A stretch of DNA of 64,000 nucleotides from Coemansia sp. RSA 922. Taxonomy: Eukaryota; Kickxellomycota; Kickxellomycetes; Kickxellales; Kickxellaceae. A program made the translations under genes and the position numbers. The stretch is from positions 25,351 to 89,350 of the forward strand of contig JANBQS010000004.1 in NCBI GenBank assembly GCA_027577415.1, written 5' to 3'. This document shows positions 3,341 through 52,643 of this stretch, one piece after another. The number at the start of each line of letters is the position of its first letter. The first letter of the stretch is position 1. The notes under the pieces are model-generated. The model worked only from the letters and a program-made list of their open reading frames with translations, was not told the origin of the DNA and did no database searches.

Positions 3341-3349
3341 TATAAAAAG
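3341..3349 (+). promoter_or_regulatory. TATA box of the small orphan gene at 3450
   Basis: TATAAAAAG 109 bp before the ATG. The same box, or a close variant, lies 79-125 bp upstream of most other small orphan genes in this window. I did not see one in front of the housekeeping genes. Confidence 0.65.
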
Positions 3350-3449: not shown

Positions 3450-3809
3450 ATGAGCAATAACAGCAACCCGAACTCTATCTTTTACATCCATGTTGGCGAT
3501 GGTGCAACTACCGGTGGATTTTTCCTTATTGATCGCACCCATGTCAAGAATGTTGATAACTTGGTTGAAGCAGAGAGAGTTGCTAGAACCATGCCTAATA
3601 TCACGTTTAACGATATAAATTCAGGTAATGGAGACACTCGCATTCAGCTGGATATTGGCTTTAGGAGGATTGGCGACTCTGGTGTAATTGAGTTTATGAT
3701 CGACCCTGCTTGCAAGTACATAATTGCTGGAAACAGTGCTAGTGTTGATGCCAGAATTGCAGACTTTAACATTTCTCAGTTCGATGCTATTCGTGCGAGC
3801 AATCCATAG
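3450..3809 (+). CDS. Small orphan protein, family A (solitary member)
   Basis: 119 aa, function unknown. No signal peptide or membrane segment. It begins with a beta-strand-like SIFYIHVGDGATT and has a C-terminal block DPACKYIIAGNSASVD. Both blocks match the four small proteins at 26.1-30.7 kb (IIYVLAKEDLTV near the start; DxxCKYIIAGKxSDI or DDACEIIVVGKEGDI near the end). The central IQLDIGFRRI also aligns with their IQVSRNYTYI. It is therefore a remote, plus-strand member of that family, about 22 kb away. A clear TATA box precedes it. The leader between TATA and ATG is short and has no upstream ATG. I do not recognise the family. Confidence 0.75.
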   Translation: MSNNSNPNSIFYIHVGDGATTGGFFLIDRTHVKNVDNLVEAERVARTMPNITFNDINSGNGDTRIQLDIGFRRIGDSGVIEFMIDPACKYIIAGNSASVDARIADFNISQFDAIRASNP

Positions 3810-21294: not shown

Positions 21295-23073
21295 TTACAT
21301 GATCTGTGCCATTTCCCAAGTATTGCCGCTAATCAAGTTCAATCTCGACTCGCTTGCAACTCCGGTCCCGTCGTCTCTATATACATCCGCCAGGCCCTCG
21401 GGGATCTCGTCGGTGCTGCTTACGGGCAAAATATGGTGCAACGGAATGTTTCTAATGAACAGACAGATGATACATGCCAGCGCAGCAAACGGCACATCAA
21501 CGACAAACACCAAGTGTAGTGCCCTGACAATACCCTTGTATAGAGGCTCGGACATGGACTGAGGCAAAAGACTAATCAGTGGAGACAAACTTCCAATCGC
21601 CACTGTATCATGGCCCGCTCCACCTCCACCAGACATAAAATCAAGGAATGCCGAGAACGACTCGCGTACTGTAATCGCCAATCTCTCCTTCATAATGACT
21701 TCGCCGATAACCAGCCCAATCATTCCGCCCAATGTCCGTGCATAGTCGATTAGCGTAGTTACCGTGGATATCTCGTTAGCTGGTAGTCCCGCTTGGCTGG
21801 CAAGCAGAACCTGCTGCATGCAAAACCCAAGTCCCAGTCCAATTATTACTTGGAATCCAGCGTGCTTGGTAGATTCAGCAGGGTCGCGAGGCCACGTATA
21901 CATCAGTATATAGCCCACCGTCATCAGCGCAGTACCCGATACAGCCCATTCGCGGTAATAGACGCGTCCGCGGAAGCTTACTAGACCACCCGCAACAACA
22001 GCACCGATACAGCCGCCGAGCGTAAACCACAGAATATGTATCGAAGCCGGAAGTGGTTTCTGCGCAAGTACCATTTGATAGTACATTGGCACAAATATAA
22101 CCATGCCATACATACAGAGCCCGATGAAAAACGACGCGATAATAGTCAGCAATGTACGAGGTCTCGCCAGCAAGTGCAAGGGGATGATTGGCCATTTAGC
22201 GAATTTGCCCTCGATAGCTCCGAATATAGCCATTACCAAGAATCCAAACACAAACAGACATATGATTAGCACCGAGTCCCACGCATACTCATTGCCACCC
22301 CACGATAACGCCAACAAGATCATCGTACTGCCGCCCAGCCAGAAGAGTGTACCCAAATAATCAAATTCGCGCAGCTTACGCGCAGTCCGACCAGGAGGTG
22401 TTGGCAGATCGTGCAGAGTAAAATAGAGAATGGCCAACGCCAGCGCGCCAATAGGCAAGTTCATAAACCCGACCCAGCGCCAATTATTATTGGCAAAGAA
22501 CGCAGCCCCGATAACAGGACTAGTCCAAGTAGCCAGTATAATAACCGCGCCCAACATTCCCATGTAAAAGCCACGCTGGCCCGGCGTCAAAATATCGGTG
22601 AGAACAACTAGCGCCAGGGGCATCATCCCTGCGCCACCCACACCCTGTAGGGCTCGTCCCACGCACATGACAATCATGCTATTCGAGACTGCCACCATTG
22701 TCGAAAACGCCATGAATAGAAGAATGGAAAAGAAAAGGGGCCACTGGCGTCCGAGTTTTTCTGCCAGTTTCACCCAAATGGGCTGCAGCATAACGCAGGG
22801 CAAGAGAAACGAGACCGCCATCCACTGCGCAAATATTTCTGTGTTAAAGTCCTTTTTCAAGTCGTCCAGTATCAGGTTAAACATCGTCTCTGCCCCACAG
22901 ACCATGAACATCGCTAAGGAGAGGCCAAGAAACGTCAGTACTGCTTTCCATACCGGCCACTGCGCCTGACCCAAGAGATTGAAGCTCCGGTTTCGCTCAA
23001 AGTCCACCGCCTCGCTTCGAGATCTGAAGCGAACGAGCTTTGCCTGACCTGGTTGGAGCTCTGCTGCCGCCAT
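21295..23073 (-). CDS. Major facilitator transporter, 14-TM (DHA2-like), tandem copy 1
   Basis: Probable proton-coupled exporter or drug/siderophore-type transporter. 592 aa from ATG 23073 (MAAAELQPGQAKLV). The frame stays open upstream, but that part is low-complexity leader sequence. Fourteen hydrophobic segments are apparent. Motifs: AEKLGRQ (motif-A-like), GRALQGVGGAGMMPL, DILTPGQRGFYMGMLGAVIILATWTSPVIGAAF (motif-C region) and WRWVGFMNLPIGALAL, all typical of 14-TM drug:H+ antiporters. The substrate cannot be told from sequence. Two close paralogues follow on the same strand (23604-25349 and 31141-32874). All share a FNLLGQxQWPxWK-type cytoplasmic start and a GLPANEISTVTTLIDYARTLGGM loop. 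Confidence 0.93.
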   Translation of the reverse strand: MAAAELQPGQAKLVRFRSRSEAVDFERNRSFNLLGQAQWPVWKAVLTFLGLSLAMFMVCGAETMFNLILDDLKKDFNTEIFAQWMAVSFLLPCVMLQPIWVKLAEKLGRQWPLFFSILLFMAFSTMVAVSNSMIVMCVGRALQGVGGAGMMPLALVVLTDILTPGQRGFYMGMLGAVIILATWTSPVIGAAFFANNNWRWVGFMNLPIGALALAILYFTLHDLPTPPGRTARKLREFDYLGTLFWLGGSTMILLALSWGGNEYAWDSVLIICLFVFGFLVMAIFGAIEGKFAKWPIIPLHLLARPRTLLTIIASFFIGLCMYGMVIFVPMYYQMVLAQKPLPASIHILWFTLGGCIGAVVAGGLVSFRGRVYYREWAVSGTALMTVGYILMYTWPRDPAESTKHAGFQVIIGLGLGFCMQQVLLASQAGLPANEISTVTTLIDYARTLGGMIGLVIGEVIMKERLAITVRESFSAFLDFMSGGGGAGHDTVAIGSLSPLISLLPQSMSEPLYKGIVRALHLVFVVDVPFAALACIICLFIRNIPLHHILPVSSTDEIPEGLADVYRDDGTGVASESRLNLISGNTWEMAQIM

Positions 23074-23603
23074 AAATGTAGCTGTGTGTATGTCGTTCGT
23101 CGCCCACAACAGAAAATGGATAGAAAATAAGAAAATAAAAAGAAAAGATGGAAATGAAAAAGAGATGAGAGAAAGAAACATGTGTGTTTTGGTGCTGTGG
23201 CGAGGAAAGAGAAAAAAAGGTTTTTTTTTTTCTTATCCATTGTGCTAACTTAGTGGGAATATTTATGCACAGTAACTTTCTTCGTGTATTCACAAAAGCA
23301 GTCTCCCTGCCGCCATTGTCTCGTTTGCAACAAATAAACTCGCGCATTGGTTAGGCGACCTACTTCTAGAAGCAGTAACACACAGAATAGCATACAACGT
23401 TTTTAGAAAATGTGGAAAGAAATGCAGCCACTTTTATGATGTAAGCGGGTGTGGGAATACATATGCATATCTGCATGCAACAGTGGCCAACACAGAATTA
23501 AGGTTTGCCATGACCACCAACAGGTATGCTATAGATTGAATTAGTAAACATGGTCTGTTTAAGGGAATGCTAGTTTTAAAAAGAATGACTGATATAAAAA
23601 ATT
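23074..23603. other. Intergenic region between MFS copies 1 and 2, no gene seen
   Basis: Promoter and leader of MFS copy 1, with polypyrimidine (minus strand) tracts around 23110-23235. No further coding signal. Confidence 0.5.
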
Positions 23604-25349
23604 TTACGCGCTTGAAACGTCGGTTTCTTCTTTTCCGTGCAAGTCGACCAAGCCCTCGGGGACCTCTTCTGTGTTGTTAACGGGCAAAATGTGGTGCAAT
23701 GGAATGCTGCCAATAAATAGGCAAAGAAGACAAGCCATCGCAGCAAACGGCACATCAACGACAAAGACCAAACGCAGTGCCTTGACAATACCCTGGTACA
23801 AGGGCTCAGACATGGCTTGTGGCAACTTGCTAAGCATGGGCGCCATGGACTGTAGCGCAACCACGTCCTGCCCTTCAAGAGGTGCCGAACCGATAAAGAA
23901 GGAGAACGATTCACGAACCGTGGCAAACATCTTCTCCTTCAGGATGACTTCTCCGACAACGAGTCCAATCATACCGCCCAATGTGCGTGCATAGTCGATT
24001 AGCGTAGTTACCGTTGAGATTTCGTTAGCTGGTAGTCCTGCTTGACTGGCAAGCAGAACCTGCTGCATGCAAAAGCCTAGTCCGAGGCCAACGAGTACCT
24101 GGAATCCCGCATGTTTAGCGCTCTCCGTAGTGTCGCGAGGCCAAGTATGCATTAGGCCATACCCAATAGCCATGAGTCCAGCTCCTAAGACTGCCCACTC
24201 GCGATAGTAGACACGACCACGGAAGCTCACCAAGCTGCCAGCAACAACTGCACCGATACAGCCGCCTAACACGCACCAGAGGATGTACTTGGTCGAACCG
24301 TACGCTCCCTCAGCCATGACCATGACGTAGTAAATAGGCACAAACATAATCATGCCATACATGCAAAAGCCAATAAAGAACGACGCGACGATAGTCAACA
24401 GCACGCGGGGCTGTATAAGCAAGTGCAAGGGAATAATCGGCCATTTGGCATACCTGCCTTCAATAACGCCGAATATCAAGATAGCGACGAGTCCAAAAGC
24501 AAACATACACGCGATGAATGCCGAGCTCCAGGGATGCTCGTTACCGCCCCACGAGAGCGCCAGCAAGATCATCAGACTACCGCCCAGCCAGAAAAGTGTT
24601 CCCAGATAGTCGAACTCGCGCAGCTTCCGGCTGAGGCGACCCGGAGGCGTTGGTAGGTCGTGCAAAGTAAAATAAAGTATACTCAAGGCGACAGCGCCAA
24701 TAGGCAAGTTCATATACCCAACCCAGCGCCAAGTGGACCGCTCGAGAAACGCGGCACCTACAATCGGTCCAGTCCATTTGCCCAAGATAATAACAGCGCC
24801 TAGTAGTCCCATGTAAAAGCCGCGCTGTCCGGGAGTCAAGATGTCGGTAAGCACGACCAGGCTTAGTGGCATCATTCCGGCGCCACCCACGCCCTGGAAG
24901 GCGCGGCCCACGCACATGACGACCATGTCCTTGGAGGCAGCGACCATAATGGAGAATACCATGAATATGAGAGTAGATATAAAGAGCGGCCACTGGCGTC
25001 CAAACTTCTCGGCCAACTTTACCCAAATGGGCTGCACCATGACACACGTAAGCAAGAACGAGGCTGACATCCACTGAGCAAAGATTTGAGTACCAAACTC
25101 TTTCTTTATGTCGCCTATAATCTGGTTAAAGCTGGTCTCAGCGGCACAGACTATGTACATCACTAGCGACAGGCCCACAAACGTAAGGCTGCTCTTCCAT
25201 AGCGGCCACTGGGGCTGGCCGAGGAGGTTGTGTCCCTTGTTCCGCTCAAAGTCAATAGCCGTCCTGCCAAGCACAGGAGCTCTCGCGGGGTGCCCTTTGT
25301 CCGTTTGCGTGTCCTCCGCCGAAGCAGTGGTGTGCATATCGTCGGTCAT
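23604..25349 (-). CDS. Major facilitator transporter, 14-TM (DHA2-like), tandem copy 2
   Basis: 581 aa, start ATG 25349. Very similar to copy 1 along the whole length (for example GRAFQGVGGAGMMPLSLVVLTDILTPGQRGFYMG and the identical ASQAGLPANEISTVTTLIDYARTLGGMIGLV loop). Most differences are in the hydrophilic N-terminus and in the segment before the last membrane spans. Same 14-TM drug:H+ antiporter architecture and unknown substrate. The similarity points to a tandem duplication. An 800-bp upstream region leads into the small-gene array at 26 kb. Confidence 0.93.
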   Translation of the reverse strand: MTDDMHTTASAEDTQTDKGHPARAPVLGRTAIDFERNKGHNLLGQPQWPLWKSSLTFVGLSLVMYIVCAAETSFNQIIGDIKKEFGTQIFAQWMSASFLLTCVMVQPIWVKLAEKFGRQWPLFISTLIFMVFSIMVAASKDMVVMCVGRAFQGVGGAGMMPLSLVVLTDILTPGQRGFYMGLLGAVIILGKWTGPIVGAAFLERSTWRWVGYMNLPIGAVALSILYFTLHDLPTPPGRLSRKLREFDYLGTLFWLGGSLMILLALSWGGNEHPWSSAFIACMFAFGLVAILIFGVIEGRYAKWPIIPLHLLIQPRVLLTIVASFFIGFCMYGMIMFVPIYYVMVMAEGAYGSTKYILWCVLGGCIGAVVAGSLVSFRGRVYYREWAVLGAGLMAIGYGLMHTWPRDTTESAKHAGFQVLVGLGLGFCMQQVLLASQAGLPANEISTVTTLIDYARTLGGMIGLVVGEVILKEKMFATVRESFSFFIGSAPLEGQDVVALQSMAPMLSKLPQAMSEPLYQGIVKALRLVFVVDVPFAAMACLLCLFIGSIPLHHILPVNNTEEVPEGLVDLHGKEETDVSSA

Positions 25350-25803: not shown

Positions 25804-26041
25804 TGTTTGGTAAATCCAAAGGTGCTCGTGACTGCAAAAAAGGAGGGGCTTCTTTTACAATGCTGCATCTGACAAAAAATTGCAGTTTTTCTTTCAAGCT
25901 ACTAGTTTTTATTTCATTGAAAGTGTGTGTCTATAAAAACAGTACTCTTTGTAGCTTATTCTGGTAGCCACTATTCGGTGAGAACAAGCAGGTATTCAGA
26001 ATTAGTGCCAGAATTAGTGCCAGCGTCGATGGTCTAGCGAG
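25804..26041. repeat. Diverged copy of the family A array repeat (right part)
   Basis: GTTTGGTAAATCC...ACTGCAAAAAAGGAGGGGCTTC...TTTACAATGCTGCA resembles 27041-27110 (GTTTGGCCGAAAA...ACTGCAAAAGATAGGGGGGC...TTAACAATACTGCA). The end AGTGCCAGCGTCGATGGTCTAGCGAG recurs near 27230-27255, 28805-28830 and 30165-30195. It also holds its own small tandem repeat (AGAATTAGTGCCAG twice at about 25999-26024). Confidence 0.6.
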
Positions 26042-26152
26042 AACTTGAGCGCCTGGCTAGTAGGCAAACAGGAGCACGGCATGTGTTTTTGTAGTCAGGA
26101 ATCACTAGATTATTTTTTAAGTGTAGATGTACTTACCATCGGCAATATTCAT

Positions 26153-26494
26153 CTACACTTCACTCCTACACGCCCGGATAATATCACCAGGTGTATAGCA
26201 CATGAGCGCTATATCACTTGGTTTTCCAGCAATTATATACTTACATGTAATATCAACATCTGCGTTCTCCTTATTCAACTCCTTGATATACTCGTAATTG
26301 CTGTTTACCTGAATACGCCTAATTTGTACTAAATCACTCTGTACGAATGAAAGGTATGTATGAATATCACCAATTGTTTTCTCTTTTTCCAACACTTCGT
26401 CATATTTTGGATTGTCACTAAGTTTTAGTATAGAGGGTGTCACCGTAAGATCCTCTTTTGCAAGGACGTATATTATTTCACCTTCTTTTGGCAT
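26153..26494 (-). CDS. Small orphan protein, family A, array member 1
   Basis: 113 aa, function unknown, no signal peptide or membrane helix. Start ATG 26494; the open frame runs on upstream through the GA/CT-rich leader without adding conserved sequence. Predicted order: strand (EIIYVLAKEDLTV), charged helix (EVLEKEKTIGDIHTYLSFVQSDL), strand (IRRIQVNSNYEYI), then DITCKYIIAGKPSDIALM. About two thirds of residues are identical to array member 4 (30258-30635), whereas members 2 and 3 between them are more distant. An AATAAAAG box lies 104 bp upstream of the ATG, with a CT tract on the coding strand between box and ATG. Confidence 0.7.
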   Translation of the reverse strand: MPKEGEIIYVLAKEDLTVTPSILKLSDNPKYDEVLEKEKTIGDIHTYLSFVQSDLVQIRRIQVNSNYEYIKELNKENADVDITCKYIIAGKPSDIALMCYTPGDIIRACRSEV

Positions 26495-26562
26495 AGTAAT
26501 ACTCGTCTGTGTGGGAATGGCAAAATTTTGTAAAATAGGGGAAATGTTATGTTGAAGTGGAA

Positions 26563-26605
26563 AAGAGAGAGAAGAGAGAGAGGTGGGAGTGGAAGGGCTT
26601 TTATT
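26563..26605 (-). promoter_or_regulatory. Core promoter of array member 1: CT tract and TATA-like box
   Basis: On the minus strand an AATAAAAG box (26605-26598) is followed by a CT-rich tract (26582-26563) and then the ATG at 26494. The same order recurs in front of array member 2 and, with a weaker box, members 3 and 4. Confidence 0.5.
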
Positions 26606-26700
26606 CTTTTCAAGAGTTGGGGAAGCGCCCTGCAAGGTAGTTCCTCCCCAAAGGACATGAGCTACTTATCCAAAAGAAACACCCTATGTAAGAGGAAATG

Positions 26701-27168
26701 CAAAAAGGAGGCTTCACCTTTGCCATTACAAAAAGGCGTCCTTTTTGTAATAAGCACACCCCCAACCAAAGGTGAGTTTTTGGGGCATTTCTTGGAAGAG
26801 CAGTTGCAATGGCTGATGTAGTCCCCTTTAAAGCTGCGATTGATGCGCTCCTAAGTGCTGGCATGATAGGTAGGGGTGGTGAACCATTTTCCGCTGCAGA
26901 ATCCAGCTCAACAGTGCATCAAGTGAGGTAACAACACTACCAACAATGCTTGCACGCACTTCCAACCTTGCGAGCAAAACTTCCAATACATTTTTGGACA
27001 GGGCGCCCAAAGCAAGACTTTTCAGTTTGTAGGATGCTCCTGAACAGGTTTGGCCGAAAAGGGTGGTCGAAACTGCAAAAGATAGGGGGGCTTTTTTAAC
27101 AATACTGCAGCTGTCAAAAATTTCAACTTTCTTTTAAACTACTTGCATTCTCAACGTTGAAAGTATAT
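26701..27168. repeat. Array repeat, copy 1, near-identical to 28277-28744
   Basis: About 468 bp that align to 28277-28744 at a constant offset of 1576 nt with no indels and only about ten substitutions (for instance TTTCTTGG/TTACATGG, GACTTTT/GACCTTT, ACTTGCATT/ACTTTTATT). It lies between array members 1 and 2. It carries a perfect hairpin at 26725-26751. Chance frames of about 60 aa in it are identical in the two copies only because the DNA is. Confidence 0.9.
26725..26751. repeat. Perfect 12-bp inverted repeat with 3-nt loop
   Basis: ATTACAAAAAGG, loop CGT, then CCTTTTTGTAAT. Present unchanged in both close copies (here and 28301-28327). As RNA it would form a strong hairpin ending in a U-run on one strand. 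Confidence 0.85.
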
Positions 27169-27582
27169 TTTTTCAAGAAAAAAGTGCTACGCAAAACTCT
27201 GTTTAAAGAAAACATGCAGGTACTTGGTGCTAGTGCCAGTGTCGATGGTTAAGCAAGCCCTTAGATATGTGGCCTGTTTCCAAGCACGAGTGGTAAGTCT
27301 GAGTAGCACCACTTACGTTGTATGTTACCTCCAACTTTTGTCAAAAAAAGATATACTATTCATAACTATTGTTAAATATCTCTTTTGTCCCTCGGTACCA
27401 TTGTCATATGTCTTGACTCGGCTCAGTTCCGTTCTCACGGTTCACTGGTTTGTTTGGCACTTTGGATATAGTGCGTGTTTGACCGGTTAACCTCTTTCTT
27501 CTTTTTCTTTAACCTTTCCAATATTAATTTTATTGACACTTAAGCTTTTAATAAGCTACGCTAGTTCACTCCGCTCTAAAAT
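27169..27582. other. Right end of array repeat and 3' flank of member 2, no gene seen
   Basis: Includes the recurring AGTGCCAGTGTCGATGGTTAAGC motif (27231-27253), then pyrimidine-rich sequence up to the stop of array member 2. A plus-strand frame 27224-27490 is hydrophobic and unconserved, so probably chance. Confidence 0.4.
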
Positions 27583-27993
27583 CTAATAACTATAGAAGAT
27601 TTCTGATATATTGACTTTGCTACCCGCAGGTTCTGGAATAAAGGTAACATTTTCCTTTCCTCTACGACATTTTCCACTTAACTTTTCGGGACTCCAGCAC
27701 AAAACATTTATATCACCCTCTTTCCCAACAACTATGATCTCACATGCATCATCAATAGCCGAGACCTCATCATTCAAGTCCTTTATATAAGTGTAATTTC
27801 TGCTGACCTGGATATGCCTAATATTTAGGCCATATTCTCTGAGAATCTTATAATGTGCGACCATTTGAGTAAATCGGCTTTCTTGATTTAGTAAATCACC
27901 ATATGTTTTTACATGCTCGCGTGATATCAGAGCTGTTTCTACTGTGCAATCTTCCTTTGCGTGTATGTATAGTATTAAACCGTCCCTAATCAT
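27583..27993 (-). CDS. Small orphan protein, family A, array member 2
   Basis: 136 aa, function unknown. Start ATG 27993 (MIRDGLILYIHAKEDCTVETALIS). Same layout as the other members: an initial strand, a charged helix (LLNQESRFTQMVAHYKILREYG), IRHIQVSRNYTYIKDLND, then IDDACEIIVVGKEGDINVLCWSPEKLSGKC. Closest to member 3: identical first strand and identical HIQVSRNYTYI, but a diverged middle and a C-terminal extension of about 20 residues absent from member 3. A Cys at the start of the CEIIVVGK block and one after the SPEKL segment are shared with member 3. AATAAAAG lies 125 bp upstream of the ATG. Confidence 0.72.
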   Translation of the reverse strand: MIRDGLILYIHAKEDCTVETALISREHVKTYGDLLNQESRFTQMVAHYKILREYGLNIRHIQVSRNYTYIKDLNDEVSAIDDACEIIVVGKEGDINVLCWSPEKLSGKCRRGKENVTFIPEPAGSKVNISEIFYSY

Positions 27994-28087
27994 GCCGACG
28001 CTCGCTTATGTATAAATATCTGAATAGTACTTTCTATTAGGGAAAACAGGTATGTGGAGTAAAGAATATACTGAGCTGTAATAGTTA

Positions 28088-28125
28088 GAGAGAGAGAGAG
28101 AGAGGCGGGTGGGGGGCCTTTTATT
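28088..28125 (-). promoter_or_regulatory. Core promoter of array member 2: CT tract and TATA-like box
   Basis: AATAAAAG on the minus strand (28125-28118) followed by an uninterrupted CT repeat (28104-28088) and the ATG at 27993. Confidence 0.5.
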
Positions 28126-28276
28126 CTCCTCAAGAGTTGGAAAAGTGCTAGAATAATAAAGGGGTTGGAATAGGGCTAGGAAACTGTTGTAATTATTCGC
28201 TAAGATGTGACGTGCAATGAGGTTCCTCCCCAAAGAGCATGCATCACTCATTGAAAATCTGACGTAGGAGGAAGTG

Positions 28277-28744
28277 CAAAAAGGAGGCTTCACCTTTGCC
28301 ATTACAAAAAGGCGTCCTTTTTGTAATAAGCACACCCCCAACCAAAGGTGAGTTTTTGGGGCATTACATGGAAGAGCAGCTGCAATGGCTAATGTAGTCC
28401 CCTTTAAAGCTGCGATTGATGCGCTCCTAAGTGCTGGCATGATAGGTAGGGGTGGTGAACCATTTTCCGCTGCAGAATCCAGCTCAACAGTGCATCAAGT
28501 GAGGTAACAACACTACCAACAATGCTTGCACGCACTTCCAACCTTGCGAGCAAAACTTCCAATACATTTTTGGACAGGGCGCCCAAAGCAAGACCTTTCA
28601 GTTTGTAGGATGCTCCTGAACAGGTTTGGCCGAAAAGGGTGGTCGAAACTGCAAAAGATAGGGGGGCTTTTTTAACAATACTGCAGCTGTCAAAAATTTC
28701 AACTTTCTTTTAAACTACTTTTATTCTCAACGTTGAAAGTATAT
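28277..28744. repeat. Array repeat, copy 2, near-identical to 26701-27168
   Basis: Second copy of the indel-free 468-bp block, located between array members 2 and 3. It is much more similar to copy 1 (about 98%) than the adjoining genes are to each other at protein level. Carries the same hairpin at 28301-28327. Confidence 0.9.
28301..28327. repeat. Perfect 12-bp inverted repeat with 3-nt loop (second copy)
   Basis: Identical to the hairpin at 26725-26751. Confidence 0.85.
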
Positions 28745-28909
28745 TCTACAATAAAAAAGTGCCACGCAAAACTCTGTTTGAAGAAAGCATGCGATTATTC
28801 AGTGTTAGTGTCAACATCAATGGTTGAGAAGGTCCATAGGAGTGTGTTCAGTTGTCTAGCACCACAGCACAAGTGCCATGTTACCACTGGCCCTTGCTAA
28901 AGAGACGTA

Positions 28910-29275
28910 CTATTCTGGAGTATAGGTAACATTACCTACTCCCATAGTGCATTTCTCTAATAACTTTTTGGGACTCATAAACAATACATTTATATCGCCC
29001 CCTTTACCAACAACAATAATTGCACATGCATCATCAACAGCCGAGACCTTATCATTCAGCTCGCTAATATAAGTGTAATTTCTGCTGACCTGGATATGCC
29101 TCATCAGTTGGCCATGTTTTTCGAGAAAATCTTGATGCTCTGCTATTTGAGTATATTGTTTTTCCTGTTCTTTCATAGTAGCATAGGTTTTTATGAGTTC
29201 CCGTGATATCAGAGCTGTTTGGACTGTGCAATCTTCCTTTGCATAAATGTATAGTATCAAACCGTCCCTAATCAT
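28910..29275 (-). CDS. Small orphan protein, family A, array member 3
   Basis: 121 aa, function unknown. Start ATG 29275 (MIRDGLILYIYAKEDCTVQTALIS). Shares with member 2 the first 25 residues almost exactly, MRHIQVSRNYTYI, and VDDACAIIVVGKGGDINVLFMSPKKLLEKC. The central helix (EQEKQYTQIAEHQDFLEKHG) has diverged but keeps its length and charge. It ends soon after the shared NVT-Y/F-PE, before the extension seen in member 2. The leader carries a long GA/CT tract (29374-29392); the TATA-like box is weak or lost. Confidence 0.72.
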   Translation of the reverse strand: MIRDGLILYIYAKEDCTVQTALISRELIKTYATMKEQEKQYTQIAEHQDFLEKHGQLMRHIQVSRNYTYISELNDKVSAVDDACAIIVVGKGGDINVLFMSPKKLLEKCTMGVGNVTYTPE

Positions 29276-29373
29276 GCCGACGCTCGCTTATGTATAAATA
29301 TTTGAGTAGTACTTTCTATTATAGAGGGCAAGTATGTGGCAAAGAATATAATTGTAAAACAAGAAGAAAAGAA

Positions 29374-29392
29374 GAGAGAGAGAGAGAGAGAG
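29374..29392. repeat. GA/CT microsatellite in the leader of array member 3
   Basis: Nine to ten GA units at the same relative position, about 100 bp before the ATG, as the tracts at 26563, 28088 and 30690. Confidence 0.7.
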
Positions 29393-29525
29393 GTGAATGA
29401 AAAGGCAGTTTCTCAATTAAAAAGTGGGTGAAGCGTCCAGCAAAGTGGTTTTTTAAAAAAAACCCCTAGCCATGGAGACAATGCCAAAGGCCACTTTACC
29501 CTTTTCAGCGTAAAATGGCAGACTT

Positions 29526-29625
29526 TAAAAACAAGCACACCCCCAACCAAAGGTAGATTTTTGGGGGTATTCAATGGAAGAGCAGTTGCAAAGGCAGGCC
29601 TGTCCCCTTTTTAGGCTAAGCAAGT
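29526..29625. repeat. Diverged copy of the array repeat (left part)
   Basis: AAGCACACCCCCAACCAAAGGT followed by TTTTTGGGGGTATTCAATGGAAGAGCAGTTGCAA matches the start of the 26701 and 28277 blocks (CACACCCCCAACCAAAGGTGAG, GGAAGAGCAGTTGCAATGG), but the hairpin is destroyed and sequence beyond about 29625 no longer aligns. Confidence 0.65.
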
Positions 29626-29954
29626 GGAGGGTGTGCTGTAAAATTTTTATTGAAGTATCACAAATGTGCACAGCGTCAGCATTGCAACATATCCAAGTAA
29701 ATCATATTGAGGGTAGCGTTCTCGCCTCTCTACCAAACCCAGTGGCAGGCGGACTATGTGAGGCGCAAGGCAGCTCTGCTAATGATTGACTGGCTCAAGA
29801 GGCAAAACATATAGCACTCACCACTCTCACTGTACACGTTGACGGGTGCTACAATGCATGCACTCTTAGGTACCGACTCCATAGGCAAAAGTGATAGTAC
29901 AACTGCAGCTATAACAAGTTCAGCAGTGCATCACGTGCGACTTGGCCATTTTCA

Positions 29955-30200
29955 AAATGCTCCTGAACAGGTTTGGCCGAAAAGGGTGGTCGAGACAGCA
30001 AAAAAAGAAGGAGCTGTTTTTACAATACCGCAGCCAACAAAAGCTGCAGTTTTTGTATTTGAGCAAAGTGTACTATTTACCATTGAAATTATGTTCTACT
30101 GAAAAAGCACTGCATGAAGTTCAATTTGAAGGCCTTTATTTGATGAAAACATGTGGTTATTCCGTATTAGGGTCAGCATCGATGGTCTAGCGAGTCCCTG
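29955..30200. repeat. Diverged copy of the array repeat (right part)
   Basis: CTCCTGAACAGGTTTGGCCGAAAAGGGTGGTCGA is shared almost exactly with 27031-27068 and 28611-28647. The similarity continues through AAAACATG and GTCAGCATCGATGGTCTAGCGAG. The 330 bp between this and the left part (29526-29625) is unrelated. Confidence 0.7.
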
Positions 30201-30257
30201 GGCATGTGGCCAAATGTCGAGCATGAGCACCACATGTAATTTAGGTATTTGTCACCC

Positions 30258-30635
30258 TTAGCTCAAGTATATAATATTGGGATAACTTAACCACTTCTCA
30301 CACGCATAGGCTAAGTTGCCAGGTGTGCTGAGCAAGAGCTTTATGTCACTTTCTTTTCCAGCAATTATATACTTACAATTATCATCTACATCTGGGTTCT
30401 CCTCATTAAACTTAAAATACTCGTACTTCTTGTTTACCTGAATACGCATAATTTGTACTAAATCACTCTGTACAAATGAAAGGTATGTGTGAATATCATC
30501 AATTGTTTTCTCTTTTTCCAATACTTTGTTATATGTTGACTTCTTACCAAGTTTTAGTATAAATGGTGTCACTGTAAGATCCTCTTTTGCAAGGACGTAT
30601 ATTATTGCTCCCTTTTTCAGCTTATTGGCGCACAT
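30258..30635 (-). CDS. Small orphan protein, family A, array member 4
   Basis: 125 aa, function unknown. Start ATG 30635 (MCANKLKKGAIIYVLAKEDLTV); the frame is open upstream through a CT tract that encodes only low-complexity Ser/Leu. Closest to member 1: shares IIYVLAKEDLTVTP, the VLEKEKTI-DIHTYLSFVQSDLVQI block, RIQVN, CKYIIAGKxSDI and a TPG motif. It continues about ten residues further at the C-terminus (EKWLSYPNIIYLS). The order of subfamilies along the DNA is therefore 1-2-2-1, all on the minus strand. Confidence 0.7.
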   Translation of the reverse strand: MCANKLKKGAIIYVLAKEDLTVTPFILKLGKKSTYNKVLEKEKTIDDIHTYLSFVQSDLVQIMRIQVNKKYEYFKFNEENPDVDDNCKYIIAGKESDIKLLLSTPGNLAYACEKWLSYPNIIYLS

Positions 30636-30689
30636 TTGTGTAGGAATAAAAAATTTGCACAAAATAGAAAATATGTCTATTTGAAGTGG

Positions 30690-30719
30690 AAGAGAGAAGA
30701 GAGAGAGAGAGAGAGAGAG
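30690..30719. repeat. GA/CT microsatellite in the leader of array member 4
   Basis: Imperfect 30-nt GA tract, same relative position as in the other array members. Confidence 0.7.
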
Positions 30720-30885
30720 GTGATGGGACAGGGCATTTAGTATTCCCAAGTGCTGAGGAAGCGCCCTGCAAGGTAGGTTCTCTTCAAAGAACATGCGCTA
30801 CTCGTCTTTAAGAAATGCCCAACACAGGAAAAATGCCAAATGTGACTTTACCTCCTTTTCCGCTCAACTGAACATACTTTGACAG

Positions 30886-30975
30886 CAGCCTAAAAGGGGC
30901 CAAGTCTGCCTTTGAATGTTCTCTTCCATGGAATGCTCCCTAAAACTCACTTGGTTGGGGATGTACATGTTTTTA
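30886..30975. repeat. Inverted fragment of the array repeat
   Basis: Reverse complement of the repeat's left part: CTCTTCCATGGAATGCTCCC, AAAACTCAC and TTGGTTGGGGATGTAC match the complement of GGAAGAGC, GTGAGTTTTTGGGGCATT and CACACCCCCAACCAA. CAGCCTAAAAGGGGCCAAG also matches the complement of 29600-29622. A run of 16 A follows at about 30974-30990. The orientation is opposite to all other copies. Confidence 0.6.
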
Positions 30976-31140
30976 AAAAAAAAAAAAAAAGTGCTCCTTA
31001 TTGCTAAGGTAAAAGTGGAGACATTGTAGAGCAGGAAATTTTTCTTGCCCAATTTCCCTACTTCTCAAGTCTCTATTTTAATTAGATTCTAAAGTAGAAT
31101 TACTAAGGCAATTCTTACTAGCTGGCTTATTTCTATTGAT

Positions 31141-32874
31141 TTACATATTTCTATCATCTCTTTTGTTCAGTTCTGTCATGTCGTCCGAGGCCTCGTCAAT
31201 GCTACTTGTGGACAAAATGACATGAAGCGGGATATTGGATATCAGGAGGCAAAGAATACAAGCCAACACAGCAAATGGCACGTTGACGACAAAGACCAAG
31301 TGCAAGTCTTCGACAATACCCTTATACAGCTGCTCTGACAATGCCAGTGGCAAGGTCTTAAGCAACGGAGCCAATGATTCGAGCCAAACTGCATCTAGGC
31401 CCTTCAGAGACTCTGATCCGAATAGTATAGGAAACGACTGGTGAACAGTAGTAAACATCTTTTCTCTCATTATTATCCCACCAATAGCCAACCCAATCAT
31501 TCCGCCTAGTGTGCGAGCGTAATCAATCAGAGTAGTCACAGTGGATATTTCTCTAGCTGGCAGCCCGGCTTGACTAGCAAGTCGCACCTGCTCCATGGAA
31601 AATCCCAATCCCAGGCCAACTAGTACTTGGAATCCGGCATGTCTAAGGGTCGCAGTAGGACTGCGTGGCCAAGTGTACATCAATATATAACCTACTGACA
31701 TTAATGCTGTTCCGAGGACTGACCATTCGCGGTAATATACTCGGCTGCGAAAGGTCACTAGATAACCAGCGACAACCGCACCGATGAATCCACCAAGTGC
31801 GCACCACAAGATGTGCTTTGCAGCAGAAAGCGGACCTTCTACCTCGAGCATCAAGTAATATATAGGCACAAATGTAATGGTGCCGTACATGCACAGCCCA
31901 ATAAAGAATGAGGCGAGGAGAGTGAGCAATGTCCGCGGCTGTACAATGACTGATAGGGGAACTATAGGCCAACTCGAGTATCTGCCCTCAATAACCCCAA
32001 ATATGAGCATAGCCACTACTCCAATTATTAATGGAACAATTATAAAAGCAGAGCTCCATGGGTGCTCGTTACCGCCCCAAGTAAGTGCTAGCAGAATCAT
32101 TAGACTGCCTCCTAGCCAGAATATAGTTCCAATATAGTCAAAGTCGCACAAAGTTCGCGCAAGTTGTCCAGAAGGCTTTGGCAAGTCACGAAGTGTATAA
32201 TACAGAATTGATAGTGCCACTGCGCCAATTGGCAAGTTCATATATCCAGTCCAACGCCAGCTGAATTGTTCGAGAAGAACAGCGCCAATGATCGGACCAG
32301 TCCATTTGCCAAGAATAATAACGGCGCCAAACAAACCCATGTAAAACCCGCGCTGCCGTGGAGTCAAGATATCAGTTAACATAACAGATGCTAGTGGCAT
32401 CATCCCAGCGCCTCCAACGCCTTGTAATGCGCGACCCACACACATGACAATCATGCTACGTGACAGGGCAACCATGACAGAGAATGCCATGAATATGAGA
32501 ATAGAAAAGAGAAGCAGCCATGTTCGACTAAATCGCTCTGTCAGTACAACCCAGATGGGTTGTACAATGGTGCACGTTAAGAGAAATGATGCGCCCATCC
32601 ACTGAGAGAATATTTTGGTGTTAAACTCTTGCTTCAAATTACCTAAGCTCTGGTTGTAAACAGTTTCGGCAGCACATACCATATACGCGACCAACGATAA
32701 GCCCACAAATGCCAAGAGCGTTTTCTTTAGCGGCCACTGAGGTTGGCCCAGTAGATTGATATCCATGTTTTGCTCATAGTCGACCACTGGCCTGCCTAGT
32801 AAGTTGGTGTGAGCGAGTCTCTCTTTTCCTATATGCTGTGCTGCCATATCCGTGTCATTGTTGCTACTCATCAT
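31141..32874 (-). CDS. Major facilitator transporter, 14-TM (DHA2-like), tandem copy 3
   Basis: 577 aa; first ATG at 32874, with a second ATG directly after it. Clear paralogue of copies 1 and 2 (INLLGQPQWPLKK start, GRALQGVGGAGMMPLASVMLTDILTP, WRWTGYMNLPIGAVAL, ASQAGLPAREISTVTTLIDYARTLGGM), but the most diverged of the three. For example AEKFGRQ is replaced by TERFSRT in the motif-A loop, which loses the usual Gly-Arg pattern. It is separated from copy 2 by the 5-kb family A array. Substrate unknown. Confidence 0.93.
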   Translation of the reverse strand: MMSSNNDTDMAAQHIGKERLAHTNLLGRPVVDYEQNMDINLLGQPQWPLKKTLLAFVGLSLVAYMVCAAETVYNQSLGNLKQEFNTKIFSQWMGASFLLTCTIVQPIWVVLTERFSRTWLLLFSILIFMAFSVMVALSRSMIVMCVGRALQGVGGAGMMPLASVMLTDILTPRQRGFYMGLFGAVIILGKWTGPIIGAVLLEQFSWRWTGYMNLPIGAVALSILYYTLRDLPKPSGQLARTLCDFDYIGTIFWLGGSLMILLALTWGGNEHPWSSAFIIVPLIIGVVAMLIFGVIEGRYSSWPIVPLSVIVQPRTLLTLLASFFIGLCMYGTITFVPIYYLMLEVEGPLSAAKHILWCALGGFIGAVVAGYLVTFRSRVYYREWSVLGTALMSVGYILMYTWPRSPTATLRHAGFQVLVGLGLGFSMEQVRLASQAGLPAREISTVTTLIDYARTLGGMIGLAIGGIIMREKMFTTVHQSFPILFGSESLKGLDAVWLESLAPLLKTLPLALSEQLYKGIVEDLHLVFVVNVPFAVLACILCLLISNIPLHVILSTSSIDEASDDMTELNKRDDRNM

Positions 32875-47678: not shown

Positions 47679-48215
47679 ACAGACAAGAACAAGAAAAACT
47701 CATACTTCTTCTCGGGCTTGGAAGCAAAGTGCCAATGACTGGGAGTGGGAGCTTGACTTGAAAGTACATTGTCTTTGTGTATCTACAAAGGCGCTATGCC
47801 CTTATCACGCTGTGAGCAATGATTGGGAGGCGCGAGACTGTGGTGGGCTTTCCTGAGCGTTAGCAAAAAGGTGGTCGCTCTTGGTATCCCCCTTGATGAG
47901 AGAATAAGAAGGCCTGCTTTAGGCCTTACGGGCCTCTAGGCGTCAGCTCTTGAACAACAAAAAGTGGTATCAACTCTGAGTGGAGCTAACCAGATGATTA
48001 CTAGATGATCGTCCATCCGCATATGTCGATCTCTATGCAAATTGCTACATGACACTGGTAGTTTTGTTTACAAAAGATCCGCAGCAAGCGTAGGGAGCTG
48101 GCAGGCAAGTTAGGATAGCTAAAAAGAGTGGCGATGGATGTGCGCCATCTCCTTTCTTCCCTGTTTAAAAATCTTTACCACAAACTTCTTATTTGTATTG
48201 TTTTTTATTAGCGCA
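47679..48215. other. Divergent spacer to the DUF4246 gene, no gene seen
   Basis: The first 80 bp belong to the family B promoter. Includes a small inverted repeat around 47911-47940 (GGCCTGCTTTAGGCC, GGGCCT). The open frame of the next gene extends into 48138-48215, but that part is judged leader. Confidence 0.4.
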
Positions 48216-49931
48216 ATGTACGAGCGCCGCACTACCATTACCATTTCTCCTTCTGCGACTCTGGAGGAGCGCATCAAGGGCATCCTTCCGCCTTGCGCCA
48301 TATTCCACTGTGAGCCTGAACCGATGAACACTCTCTCCGAAAGGCGTATGCGTCATATGAGCAGAGACATACGTACCAAGCCCGACTGGATCGAGACGCT
48401 TAATGACGCAGAGACTCGCGCCGACTGGGCTGCCCAGGCCAAAGCTCATGAATTGACTGATGTCGAGTTTGAATACGTGCTGGATGAGCTGGCATACTAC
48501 TCGTCTCTACACCCGCCGGGCAGCAACGTCAGACTTAGTGCGGCAGATGGCGTGTGGTTCTGTGATGCACTTGTTGACGTCGAGACAACAGATGAGCTCA
48601 AGGACTATGTAGCTATTCTCGAGGGCGTGCCAGACTACCAGAAAGACTGGTACCCCGAAGGTCAGTCCTGCGTGCTCAATCTGATTGACCCATCACTATA
48701 TCCGCTGATCTACAGTCGTTTGTGGCGGTGTCGCCAGGCTAGTACGTCGCCACAGGTGGCGCTTACTCTAAATGCGCCGAGAGAGTTCCCTGTATCGCTT
48801 GCGAAGTGGCGTCAGGCTCTAGGCGGTACTGGCAATGGTGGGTCGGGCTACTATATTCCGACATTTAGGGGCTGTCTCGAAACATGTTATTCGGAGAAGT
48901 TCTGCTGGCTGCCGTCTGAGTTTCATGTTGACGATAATGGCACTGTCACTATTGAGTCTTACATCAACAACCTGCACCCTGTCAAGCACGCAGCGCTCTA
49001 CTCGATTATCGCCAATGTCTTTTCCAAGTTCCTCCCATTGCTGGAGCAGGTAGTCACCGATCTCGTATATCCGCGCCAGCCACGAGTTAAACCTGATGCG
49101 TCTAAATACTACAAGAGCGATGAGCCTAAGCCCGACATATACAGTGATGACTGCGATCGGTGGAAAGAGGAAGCAGAGTTTGTGCCCCCGCAGCCTGAGC
49201 CGTTTGTGGCACCTGCACGCCCTGTCAATCCCTACAGTCTTCGTGGCCGGCGTCTACAGACTATAGTCAGAATGTCTAACGTCGAGCTAGCTACAGAGAA
49301 CCCTGAGTACAGCGATAAGATCTGGAGGCTGGCGGGTTTGGCCAACGAGCGCATTGTTGCCACCTGCGTATACTTTTACGACGTTGCTAATATTTCTCCA
49401 GCCTGCCTGCGATTCCGTGAGGCCATTAGCTCTTGGGATTTCGAGGCCGATAACCATGATGTTAATTCGGTTGTCAAGGTGTACGGGTTGGACGAAAATC
49501 TAGTTCACGATGCATACTTTGTGTCACAAGAGGTTGGTGATGTCGACATTAAAGATGGGCGGTGCTTGGTGTTCCCCAACATCTACCAGCACAAGATGCC
49601 AGAGCTCAAGCTGGATGATTCGACTAAGCCCGGACATTGCAAGATGCTTACGTTTTACGTGGTTGATCCGAGTACGCGCATTCCGTCGACTGAGATTGTG
49701 CCACCTCAGCAGCAGGATTGGTGGAGCGAGGACTTGTTGTCATCTGAGCCGCTCGGGAGTTTGCCTCAACTAATCATGGGCGGTATCATGAACATGGTCG
49801 ATTATCCGATTTCTTTAAAGAATGTCAAGAGGCTCCGTCAGGATATGGCAAGTCAGTACGAATGTTTCGTTGGTGATATCTCGTATCATGATTATGAGCC
49901 GTGGTTCGACTATGGATGTACTATTTATTAG
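48216..49931 (+). CDS. DUF4246 family protein, probably catalytically altered
   Basis: 571 aa from ATG 48216 (MYERRTTITISPSATLEERI). An in-frame ATG at 48138 would add 26 hydrophobic residues that look like translated leader. Typical DUF4246 features: KPDWIETLNDAETRADWAAQA, LEGVPDYQKDWYPEGQSCVLNLIDPSLYPLIYSRLW, SYINNLHPVKHAALYSIIANV, and a C-terminal jelly-roll-like part (GRCLVFPNIYQHKMPELKLDDSTKPGHCKMLTFYVVDP, STEIVPPQQQDWW). From memory, family members carry WHVEG...NEH and PGHRK where this protein has WRLAG...NER and PGHCK. This would remove the proximal metal ligands and the putative 2-oxoglutarate-binding Arg. The reaction of the family is not established. Confidence 0.85.
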   Translation: MYERRTTITISPSATLEERIKGILPPCAIFHCEPEPMNTLSERRMRHMSRDIRTKPDWIETLNDAETRADWAAQAKAHELTDVEFEYVLDELAYYSSLHPPGSNVRLSAADGVWFCDALVDVETTDELKDYVAILEGVPDYQKDWYPEGQSCVLNLIDPSLYPLIYSRLWRCRQASTSPQVALTLNAPREFPVSLAKWRQALGGTGNGGSGYYIPTFRGCLETCYSEKFCWLPSEFHVDDNGTVTIESYINNLHPVKHAALYSIIANVFSKFLPLLEQVVTDLVYPRQPRVKPDASKYYKSDEPKPDIYSDDCDRWKEEAEFVPPQPEPFVAPARPVNPYSLRGRRLQTIVRMSNVELATENPEYSDKIWRLAGLANERIVATCVYFYDVANISPACLRFREAISSWDFEADNHDVNSVVKVYGLDENLVHDAYFVSQEVGDVDIKDGRCLVFPNIYQHKMPELKLDDSTKPGHCKMLTFYVVDPSTRIPSTEIVPPQQQDWWSEDLLSSEPLGSLPQLIMGGIMNMVDYPISLKNVKRLRQDMASQYECFVGDISYHDYEPWFDYGCTIY

Positions 49932-50524
49932 CGCCGTGGTTGTAGAGATTTGTTTTATTCTTGGAAATTGTTTAATGTATATGCTTGACTGCATTATTTT
50001 ACAAGTGAAATATATTTATAGTGTAGAGCACTAGTCTAGCTATAGGCCGCCACAGTTGACCTGTTATCCTGGGATACAGGTGTCAACAACTGGGTGCATA
50101 AATGTACGAACGTTTGGGGGCAGAAAACACCTTTGGTCGCTATTCTTTATAGGCCTACAAGACATTCAACATATTCGGAGGAGTAGCAAAGAAGCAAGCC
50201 AAAAAATTGAATGTGAGAAAGGGTTTTCCTCAATGTCCTTTTCCCTTCACCCTTCAAACTGAAAGAAAAAGTGAATAAAAAGTTGAAAGGTCACTCTTTT
50301 ATACCCTACAACCCCTAACAACCCCTCTAACGACCCGGTTTGAGAATGCGAATGGTTGATGGGCAATTGTAGATGTAGATTTGACAATACGATGTCATGT
50401 AAATTTTGTTCAAGGGCGTAACGTAGTTTATTGCAAGCTTTTGACAAATGCTTCCACAGCTGAGGCTTGTACATGAAGATAAATGAGCGGGGATAATTTC
50501 AATTTATTGTGGATTTTACAAAAT
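49932..50524. other. Intergenic region, isolated TATA-like box only
   Basis: Holds TATAAAAG on the minus strand at 50303-50296, like the boxes of the small orphan genes, but no conserved frame follows it. Possibly the remains of a lost family B gene. Confidence 0.3.
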
Positions 50525-50690
50525 GCGGATGACGACAAAGATCCTTTGTTGCTTCCACGCAAACAGAAAGAAGCGGAGGGGTGGACAAATTGTTGGGGCA
50601 AACCAAGCTCTTTGGGGATTTTCTTTCAAATATGCGAGACAAAGAAAAGAGGAATTTCTTTTTGGCAGATGGCAAAGGCTCTTTTCAATC
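50525..50690. repeat. Diverged repeat shared with 51655-51822
   Basis: GATGACGACAAAG...CTTTTG/CCTTTG..CAAACAGAA..., GGACAAATTGTTGGGGCAAACC..GCTCTTTGGGG, then ATATGCGAGACAAAGAAAAG and GGCAGATGGCAAAG match in order the other copy (GATGATGACAAAAG, CAAACAGAA, GGACAGGCTGTTG, CATCTTTGGGGG, AATGCGAAGCAAAGAAAG, GGCGGATGGCTAAA). Old duplication with indels. Confidence 0.55.
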
Positions 50691-50885
50691 TACATTTTCC
50701 CAATGGATGGACAGTGAAAACGGCATTTCCCAATTTCTGTCACCACCTCATTATTCAACCTTGAAGAAAATACTGCAGCAAAGGCACAGCATAACGTATT
50801 TTTTTATGAGACAACAGGTCAACAAGGAACACTCACGTGGTTGCAGGCCAACTGGCTGTAATACTCCCCCATTAAAGCTGCTTGT

Positions 50886-51302
50886 TCAAAGAATAACACA
50901 GGTTCGGGCTGGGATCTCCATTTTGGTATACATATTTTGATATTTCTTATATCCAATACTATTTGGGTGATCATAGCATAATGTGTGATTTGGATAGCAA
51001 GTGAATGCCCAATACAAGAAGTTTACTATACCGTTATCTGTGATAGGTACAGGGATGCCACTCACATGGGTAACAAAAACAATGTCTTTAGCTGTGATGA
51101 CGCCCTCTTCAAGAGGAGATGGACAGTCTTTTATATGGAATACACCTATCTCAATAGAAATTCCAGTGCAGAATAAAGTTTCTTCTAGATTGGCTAGCAC
51201 GCTATAGTCAAGGGAGTATACGACATACTTAGTTTCAGATGTATTGATGTAGTTTTGTAGATCATCATTGTTGTAGAGTGTCTTTTTAACAGGGCGATCC
51301 AT
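50886..51302 (-). CDS. Small orphan protein, family B, member 2
   Basis: 138 aa, start ATG 51302 (MDRPVKKTLYNNDDLQNYINTS). Function unknown. Pattern: NNDDLQNYINTSETKYVVYSLDYSVLANLEE (helix, strand, helix), ISIEIGVFHI, DIVFVTHVSGIPVPITD (strand followed by a Pro-rich turn as in thioredoxin folds), NGIVNFLYWAFTCYPNHTLCYDHPNSIGYKKYQNMY. The ending HTLCYDHPNSxGYKKYQNM strongly matches HKLCYAHPSSDGSNKYRKI of member 3, so these two are clearly homologous. No CxxC. A CATAAAAAG box lies 86 bp upstream. Confidence 0.7.
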   Translation of the reverse strand: MDRPVKKTLYNNDDLQNYINTSETKYVVYSLDYSVLANLEETLFCTGISIEIGVFHIKDCPSPLEEGVITAKDIVFVTHVSGIPVPITDNGIVNFLYWAFTCYPNHTLCYDHPNSIGYKKYQNMYTKMEIPARTCVIL

Positions 51303-51387
51303 TGTATAGTGGTCTGAAGCAAGTGGCAAGTGGAAGTGGATAAGATGTAATAACAATTGTTGGAAAAGAAGAAGAGCAAGAGTGGCA

Positions 51388-51396
51388 CTTTTTATG
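51388..51396 (-). promoter_or_regulatory. TATA-like box of family B member 2
   Basis: CATAAAAAG on the minus strand, 86 bp before the ATG at 51302. Confidence 0.5.
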
Positions 51397-51654
51397 TCGT
51401 GTTTACCAAGCCCTCTCTCAATTCAAATTAAAAAAAAGCGAGTAGTTGGGTAGAGAATGGAAAGCTGGAGAGGTAAGGGCTAAAATATTTTTCTCCCCTT
51501 ACAAAAGTGTTTGCATTCGGGAACATAATTTTGGGGCAAGAAAAAACGTTCAATCGAGCAAACTGTCAAAGCAAGCAAAGCTCTTTGGCCTACATCTCTA
51601 AAGAGGCAAAGGCGTCTCTTTGACAATGGGAAAAGCCTTTCCTTGAAGATGGTT

Positions 51655-51822
51655 GGGGATGATGACAAAAGCCCTTTTGTAAACCCTTCACAAACAGAAG
51701 GTTCTTTGAGGGTGGACAGGCTGTTGAAACAAGTAGGCATCTTTGGGGGCTTTTTTTAAAATGCGAAGCAAAGAAAGTAAAGAACACCCTTTGGCGGATG
51801 GCTAAAACCTTTGTTGGCCAAT
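51655..51822. repeat. Diverged repeat shared with 50525-50690
   Basis: Second copy of the old duplicated block; see the entry at 50525 for the matching segments. It lies upstream of family B member 2. The remaining sequence of 51397-52116 shows no gene. Confidence 0.55.
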
Positions 51823-52116
51823 TTTTAGTAAACTTTGAGCTACACTATCGTGTCTATAGAGCACTAGCATGCATTACAGAGGTTTGATTAACATGCTGTC
51901 TATTTTGTGCTTTTTCTTTACTAATAGTTATGATAATATTTATTAGTTTAAGCTATAAAGACCATCAATTTAACTTTATAGGGATATTATCATGGGAGGG
52001 CGGCTGTGGTAAGTATGCTTATGCCAGTTGCTAGGCTTATATTGGACTTGTATGCAGTTGCCGGTTAGCACACATAATTTCTCACTACCAAAGGTGCATG
52101 GTCAATGTAGGCAACA

Positions 52117-52524
52117 TCATGCTTGGGTCACCGTGCCCTCAGTTATTCTAGCTATTTTGCGATATTTATTACTTCCGTCACTACTGGGATGAGCATAGCA
52201 CAATTTGTGAAGGGGAAACTGCAGCTTGGCAGTTTTCAAAAATTCCAACAGTGTATCTGTGTCACTAATGTCTTCAGGCCCTTCATCACCAATGCGAACA
52301 AATACTATGGTATTTGATTTGACATTGTCTTTTTCTATATCATCTTTAAAATGATCCATATTAATTAAGCCTAATGTAATAGAGTCACCACTGTAATCAA
52401 CAAACTTTAGCTGTTTTAGTGATTCCATATCCAGGGCATATACTACATAGGCAGGTGTGTTGTTATTCATAAATTCATCTAGTGAGTTATCGTCTTCAAT
52501 TAAGACAGTAGAGATGGTGTTCAT
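52117..52524 (-). CDS. Small orphan protein, family B, member 3
   Basis: 135 aa, start ATG 52524 (MNTISTVLIEDDNSLDEFMNNN). Function unknown. DNSLDEFMNNNTPAYVVYALDMESLKQLKF, DSITLGLINMDHF, NTIVFVRIGDEGPEDISDTDTLLEFLKTAKL and HKLCYAHPSSDGSNKYRKI give the same strand/helix order as members 1 and 2. The Asp/Glu-rich composition gives a low pI. No CxxC and no signal peptide. The frame is open upstream to 52611 without a further ATG. TATAAAAAG lies 111 bp upstream of the start. Confidence 0.7.
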   Translation of the reverse strand: MNTISTVLIEDDNSLDEFMNNNTPAYVVYALDMESLKQLKFVDYSGDSITLGLINMDHFKDDIEKDNVKSNTIVFVRIGDEGPEDISDTDTLLEFLKTAKLQFPLHKLCYAHPSSDGSNKYRKIARITEGTVTQA

Positions 52525-52634
52525 TATATAGTATTCTGCTGAAACTGGTGCCGAACGTAAGTGGTGGGTAGTGAGTAGTAGGCGTGTTGGAGTAAAAAAA
52601 ATACAAACCAAAAAAGGGGAGCGGAAAGGGAGCT

Positions 52635-52643
52635 CTTTTTATA
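52635..52643 (-). promoter_or_regulatory. TATA box of family B member 3
   Basis: TATAAAAAG on the minus strand, 111 bp before the ATG at 52524. Confidence 0.6.

Follow-up and report, generated by a model that had tools for sequence, protein, structure and literature searches.

How can the DNA between genes stay nearly unchanged while the genes beside it have drifted far apart? This question is raised by an array of four small genes (g1 to g4) within a 64,000-nucleotide stretch of the genome of the fungus Coemansia sp. RSA 922 (hereafter, the window). An original prediction described them as orphan genes alternating with copies of one intergenic repeat that is far better conserved than the genes themselves, and it saw here the best candidate for an undescribed system. 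Our analysis makes it likely that these four genes form one tandem group within a multigene family of the Coemansia lineage that is shaped by duplication and divergence, with a gene-conversion tract between them and with beta-grasp interaction modules as products; a functional link of dispersed members to F-box-like proteins is a weaker proposal. What is new here is, most simply, the lineage-specific protein family, while the spacer puzzle turns out to be ordinary. Of greater interest than the spacer are the family itself, the promoter exclusive to many of its members and the F-box-like genes nearby.

The four genes were found where they had been predicted: all are open reading frames (ORFs) on the minus strand, and all are matched by the hidden Markov model (HMM) of the family described below (Table 1). 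The array units stand head-to-tail, each consisting of a gene and its spacer. Over aligned codons, the proteins are 69% identical for g1/g4 and 66% for g2/g3, against 31-34% for the four cross-subfamily pairs, which bears out the subfamily order 1-2-2-1 as well as the distance between members 1 and 2 (g1/g2, 33%). The full g4 ORF spans 30258-30794 (178 amino acids, aa); its 5' extension to 30794 passes through a CT-repeat region, and the conserved protein begins at the downstream ATG.

The claim about the spacers held in one place only. Spacers 1 and 2 share a tract of 468 bp with 461 identical positions (98.5%), seven differing positions and no indels, and the flanks of the two copies are unlike on both sides. 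When 26631-27287 was aligned with 28213-28862, 64 differences were counted, 5 of them in the 446 columns of the best segment and 59 in the 211 columns outside it, a clustering that was matched in none of 10,000 shuffles. Beyond the tract, the alignable parts of these two spacers are about 72% alike. Spacer 3, compared with them across the tract in 60-column windows, reaches 44-83%. More generally, spacer 3 and the spacers upstream of g4 and downstream of g1 match in pieces only (66-86%), short CT-repeat matches aside. It is only within this single tract of spacers 1 and 2 that spacer conservation far exceeds that of the genes.

What, then, produced this tract? A dispersed mobile element, one of the origins originally proposed, is not supported. 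A DNA search with the block, in which very common words were skipped, gave four places in the window's own assembly (20.4 Mb, 960 contigs), all within the array. The idea that dispersed copies of the genes sit in the same kind of spacer was dropped, as spacer DNA was matched only inside the array. Instead, the pattern is most simply explained by non-allelic gene conversion, a mechanism that the prediction had offered and that the sharp edges of the tract, set in otherwise diverged spacers, support.

A functional element, either a regulatory region or a non-coding RNA, could also have been held near-unchanged by selection. The block does lie upstream of g1 and g2, its first copy contains a hairpin with 12-bp arms at ~26725-26751, and each of the four upstream spacers keeps a piece of 66-100 bp at 75-86%, which is inverted before g4. 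We nevertheless regard this as unlikely: elsewhere in the tract spacer 3 has diverged as described, the array's remaining spacers lack such conservation and retain pieces only, the identity ends sharply on both sides, and no Rfam match at the gathering score was obtained in the window. Since function alone leaves both the sharp edges and the single favored pair unexplained, gene conversion is the better account.

The same spacer pair could also have arisen if a whole unit had recently been duplicated and its genes had then diverged rapidly. The head-to-tail arrangement of gene and spacer units does imply that units were duplicated at some time. However, g1 and g2 differ with a synonymous divergence (dS) of ~1.2, against 1.5% in the tract, so that synonymous sites would have to change at about 80 times the rate of the spacer. 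As unit duplication alone leaves this discrepancy unexplained, the synonymous divergence already largely refutes it as the origin of the spacer pair, and we hold it to be highly improbable. An artefact of the fragmented assembly, affecting the gene order or creating near-identical spacers, seems scarcely credible: although near-identical 468-bp blocks only 1576 bp apart are difficult for short reads, and the assembly is split into 960 contigs, the copies differ at seven places and are flanked on either side by unlike sequence.

Contrary to the original description, the genes are not orphans. A search of the assembly with g1 gave weak matches elsewhere, which were later shown to belong to the family. 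Two dispersed members used as queries returned 46 and 50 rows at E ≤0.1, which merge into at least 49 places, five of them in the window; this count is a lower bound, and at a few of the places the match is interrupted by in-frame stops. When an HMM was built from 29 dispersed members alone, leaving out every gene of the window, it recovered all four array genes together with a fifth member located elsewhere in the window (E 3.7e-15 to 3.5e-7), while the next ORF of the window scored E 0.31 and the best reversed ORF E 0.74. All 22 aligned rows, those of g1, g2, g3 and the fifth member among them, share the invariant cysteine of a C-K-[YF]-I-x-[VI]-G region, and it is kept in g4; the lysine that follows it is lacking in g2 and g3. 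Two pairs of contigs (C28/C884 and C836/C626; loci L052, L053, L055 and L056) carry the same small clusters of three and two members at 88-95% protein identity, and are either segmental duplicates or diverged haplotypes.

Beyond this genome, searches with family alignments found two and four proteins at E ≤0.1 (of 473 and 480 candidates). Five of these relatives come from Coemansia records and one, P0006, from a 988-bp contig. Coemansia sp. S17 is classified in Kickxellales, the order to which the original prediction had pointed. The Coemansia proteins (LPJ71_000231, LPJ71_000019, GGI09_000410/LPJ71_000110, GGH94_005915 and GGF41_005838) are hypothetical proteins, unnamed and with no stated function. 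By itself, g2 gave no match at E ≤1 among seven candidates from a large protein collection. Pfam scans of the four array genes, and then of 12 and 22 family members, yielded no match above the cut-off. Likewise, no title or abstract start in the literature on gene families, effectors, F-box proteins or promoters of Coemansia, Kickxellales and Kickxellomycotina describes such a family. The word undescribed is therefore apt for the protein family, within the titles and abstract starts covered.

The tree places the array and P0006 in one group, with an unresolved family root and a weak join between the array and the fifth member. P0006, which is of equal length to g3 and 60% identical to it, joins g3 after the split of g2 from g3 (support 96/83; the bootstrap had not settled in this tree). 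Because of this position, the g2/g3 duplication probably predates the divergence from the source of P0006.

Do these genes diverge under positive selection, as had been suggested? The gene-wide ratios of nonsynonymous to synonymous change (dN/dS, NG86) give no sign of it overall. Within subfamilies, the pair g1/g4 has a ratio of 0.68 and the pair g2/g3 one of 0.52 (one-sided Fisher p 0.10 and 0.011, respectively). Among 21 recent dispersed pairs, which share genes and are not independent, one had no synonymous change; of the 20 with a defined ratio, 19 were below 1 and 17 below 0.5, the only value above 1 being that of C31/C66 (1.15). In random walks with an equal number of substitutions, the g3 and g1 frames stayed open in only 5% and 9% of trials, respectively. 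Since dN/dS is mostly below 1 and the frames seldom stay open by chance, the genes are probably protein-coding and under relaxed purifying selection.

The same ratios bear on the idea that the family is selfish, for example a set of spore killers like the wtf genes of Schizosaccharomyces (fission yeast), with gene conversion among dispersed copies. There are likenesses: both are large fungal families of fast-evolving paralogues with non-allelic conversion, probable in the Coemansia family, that reaches upstream DNA; the many Coemansia paralogues are dispersed and tandem, with a probably converted non-coding tract, and passages of PMC6526906 describe wtf conversion as extending into upstream regions, promoters included. 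On the other hand, most of the recent dispersed pairs have the low ratios given above, and the flanks examined carry other gene families. In addition, wtf genes are multi-exon and have poison/antidote drivers among them, whereas the Coemansia family consists of single open frames. We therefore judge a selfish family very unlikely.

A further property sets many of the dispersed members apart. Their TATA box lies mostly 94-167 bp before the ATG, and TATAWA occurs in the last 150 bp upstream of 29 of 30 non-array members, whereas 1000 shuffles gave 3.9 on average and never more than 11. The 21-bp core-promoter pattern around this box, GGYGGGTATAWAAAGCCCACT, has 24 genomic matches with at most two mismatches, all on the same strand and 92-325 bp upstream of 24 different members. 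At up to three mismatches there are 30 matches in the assembly, and again all lie upstream of family members; the six additional sites, also on the same strand, precede members on contigs C8 and C33 (96 bp each) and C22, C173, C543 and C944 (424-470 bp). The reversed pattern had no match at either threshold. Because family members served to define the pattern, the informative part is its absence elsewhere in the assembly.

The pattern is found upstream of 30 of the 49 members; the array genes and the fifth member are among the 19 that lack it, and its 17-bp core has no match in the window. GGYGGGTATAWAAAGCCCACT thus marks part of the dispersed branch and not the array or the fifth member. In 13 representatives whose TATA box lies within the interval expected, mean identity was 77% for the 21 bp, a stretch chosen as the best-conserved part, 53% for the coding DNA and 35% for the protein; three others of the 16 (C27, whose element is slightly further upstream, C350 and C199) have no TATA box there and were not used. 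The array becomes a tractable example of a lineage-specific gene family in an early-diverging fungus, one with a core promoter more alike than its genes. If the exclusivity of this promoter reflects one regulator, the family could be recognizable as a regulon.

Which kind of protein is encoded? Two predicted models, of g3 and of the fifth member (predicted local distance difference test, pLDDT, 76-78), suggest with moderate confidence a single beta-grasp (ubiquitin/PB1-like) domain, a superfold defined by the order beta-beta-alpha-beta-beta-beta. The structure matches of the models were middling, with 1-16% sequence identity among the matches listed, and sequence searches of solved structures gave seven chance-level rows for alignment A1 (best E 0.084) and none for alignment A2. 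Among the matches listed, the nearest domains by predicted fold are those of the PB1 and ubiquitin superfold (for example ARF7 PB1, PDB 4nj6, and the PI3K adaptor-binding domain); by comparison, the family protein is predicted to be free-standing, with two C-terminal helices and the invariant cysteine in the region of the last strand. Judging from the open frames, the genes are apparently intronless and the proteins most likely intracellular. We favor an intracellular interaction module as the function of the family. Nothing found points to a toxin-antitoxin or secreted-effector locus, the kinds of system that the architecture had called to mind, though no signal-peptide prediction was run.

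With a ubiquitin-like fold, the family could instead represent translocated effectors of the Crinkler (CRN) type reduced to their header. Pfam includes a Crinkler header model. At E ≤1, however, 22 diverse members gave no match to any Pfam family better than E 0.05, and no Crinkler family was among the matches listed. A downstream toxin domain is absent, and the stop-to-stop frames (60-225 aa) are too short for a further C-terminal domain in nearly all cases. The likeness lies in the predicted fold, CRN headers being described as ubiquitin-like in passages of PMC5289972, and in the neighborhood: FunK1 kinases (PF17667) occur in the flanks of 4 of 34 loci, and a separate ORF with a weak ubiquitin-family Pfam match (L042:2586-2966, E 0.016, below the cut-off) stands beside one small-gene member and a DUF4246 gene. 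Taken together, we consider a CRN origin quite unlikely and retain the interaction module.

The neighborhood of the dispersed members suggests with what such modules might interact. The flank test covered 34 dispersed loci, with the other 15 of the 49 places, the window members among them, outside it. Within 1.5 kb, part of an F-box-like gene, of the family that the window carries at 57665-63552, was found at 23 loci and a DUF4246 gene at 7. The chance expectation for an F-box-like neighbor is about 15%, an upper bound that takes all 670 first-look candidates as genuine. When related loci were grouped by hand, 10 of 13 groups had such a neighbor. By distance, at least 15 of the 49 family places lie within 5 kb of an F-box-like gene, with the best 77 of the 670 candidates scored; the flank test is preferred because the list of F-box-like genes is incomplete. 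On the same 77 candidates, the F-box-like family counts at least 82 rows in the genome. Pfam gives no F-box match, and the label is our own reading.

Part of the effect comes from joint duplication of blocks. A block of FunK1 kinase, small gene and DUF4246 gene is present in four copies (C31, C5, C66 and C26; L063-L066) that are 88-98% identical in DNA, each with an F-box-like gene 3.3-3.9 kb away. A functional link of the family to F-box-like proteins is weakly suggested. Were the neighborhood to prove functional, it would be a sign that Kickxellales possess a ubiquitin-linked system not yet studied.

Our model is as follows. Small single-domain, apparently intronless genes would multiply by duplication and then diverge. 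In the array, units of gene and upstream DNA would have been duplicated long ago, with the g2/g3 duplication, provided that the tree is correct, preceding the divergence from the source of P0006, and non-allelic gene conversion would much later have produced the identity of spacers 1 and 2. The proteins would most likely act as intracellular beta-grasp (ubiquitin/PB1-like) protein-interaction modules. Because 30 dispersed members share the exclusive promoter and many adjoin F-box-like genes, we hypothesize that these members are co-regulated and that they act within an SCF-like or recognition network, whether as partners, ligands or adaptors. A bolder version, which we think improbable, is a previously unnamed fungal recognition network in which dozens of diverse ubiquitin-like modules, mostly switched on together by the exclusive promoter, are matching ligands or adaptors for the co-expanded F-box-like proteins, with tandem branches making variants through duplication and conversion.

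Table 1. Features of the array and of the rest of the window (positions are those of the window).
Feature	Position	Strand	Size or location	Evidence or similarity
g1	26153-26494	minus	113 aa, subfamily 1	ORF; family HMM E 4.1e-9
g2	27583-27993	minus	136 aa, subfamily 2	ORF; family HMM E 3.5e-7
g3	28910-29275	minus	121 aa, subfamily 2	ORF; family HMM E 8.8e-8
g4	30258-30635	minus	125 aa from ATG at 30635, subfamily 1	ORF; family HMM E 4e-8
High-identity spacer tract, copy 1	26701-27168		~200-670 bp upstream of g1	461/468 identical to copy 2; sharp edges
High-identity spacer tract, copy 2	28277-28744		~280-750 bp upstream of g2	461/468 identical to copy 1; sharp edges
Diverged spacer 3 copy	29530-30042			Pieces 29530-29610 (83%) and 29957-30042 (84%) match spacer 1; unlike sequence between
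Piece of spacer upstream of g4	30885-30981		inverted	75% to 26742-26837
Diverged spacer-tail copy	25818-26084		downstream of g1	67% to spacer 3 over 272 columns; 74-77% to spacers 2 and 1 in shorter pieces
Fifth family member	3450-3809	plus	119 aa	HMM E 3.7e-15; relatives in other Coemansia records 93% and 68%
TATA box	3341-3347	plus	~109 bp upstream of fifth member	
DUF4246 gene	48138-49931			PF14033, E 8.8e-103; paralogues in flanks of 7/34 dispersed loci
Three tandem F-box-like genes	57665-63552		566-622 aa	No Pfam match above cut-off

Finally, some features of the window concern the surroundings of the array. The inverted spacer remnant of ~100 bp upstream of g4 lies at the outer end of the array, beside a run of A. 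Three related genes resembling MFS transporters, one identified by Pfam and the other two by DNA repeats, share one orientation (21295-25349 and 31141-32874), and the array sits between the second and the third, breaking an apparent tandem cluster. The nearest F-box-like gene in the window is 27 kb from the array. The region at 50001-54000 has a low G+C content (0.39-0.40) and no ORF of 150 aa or more.

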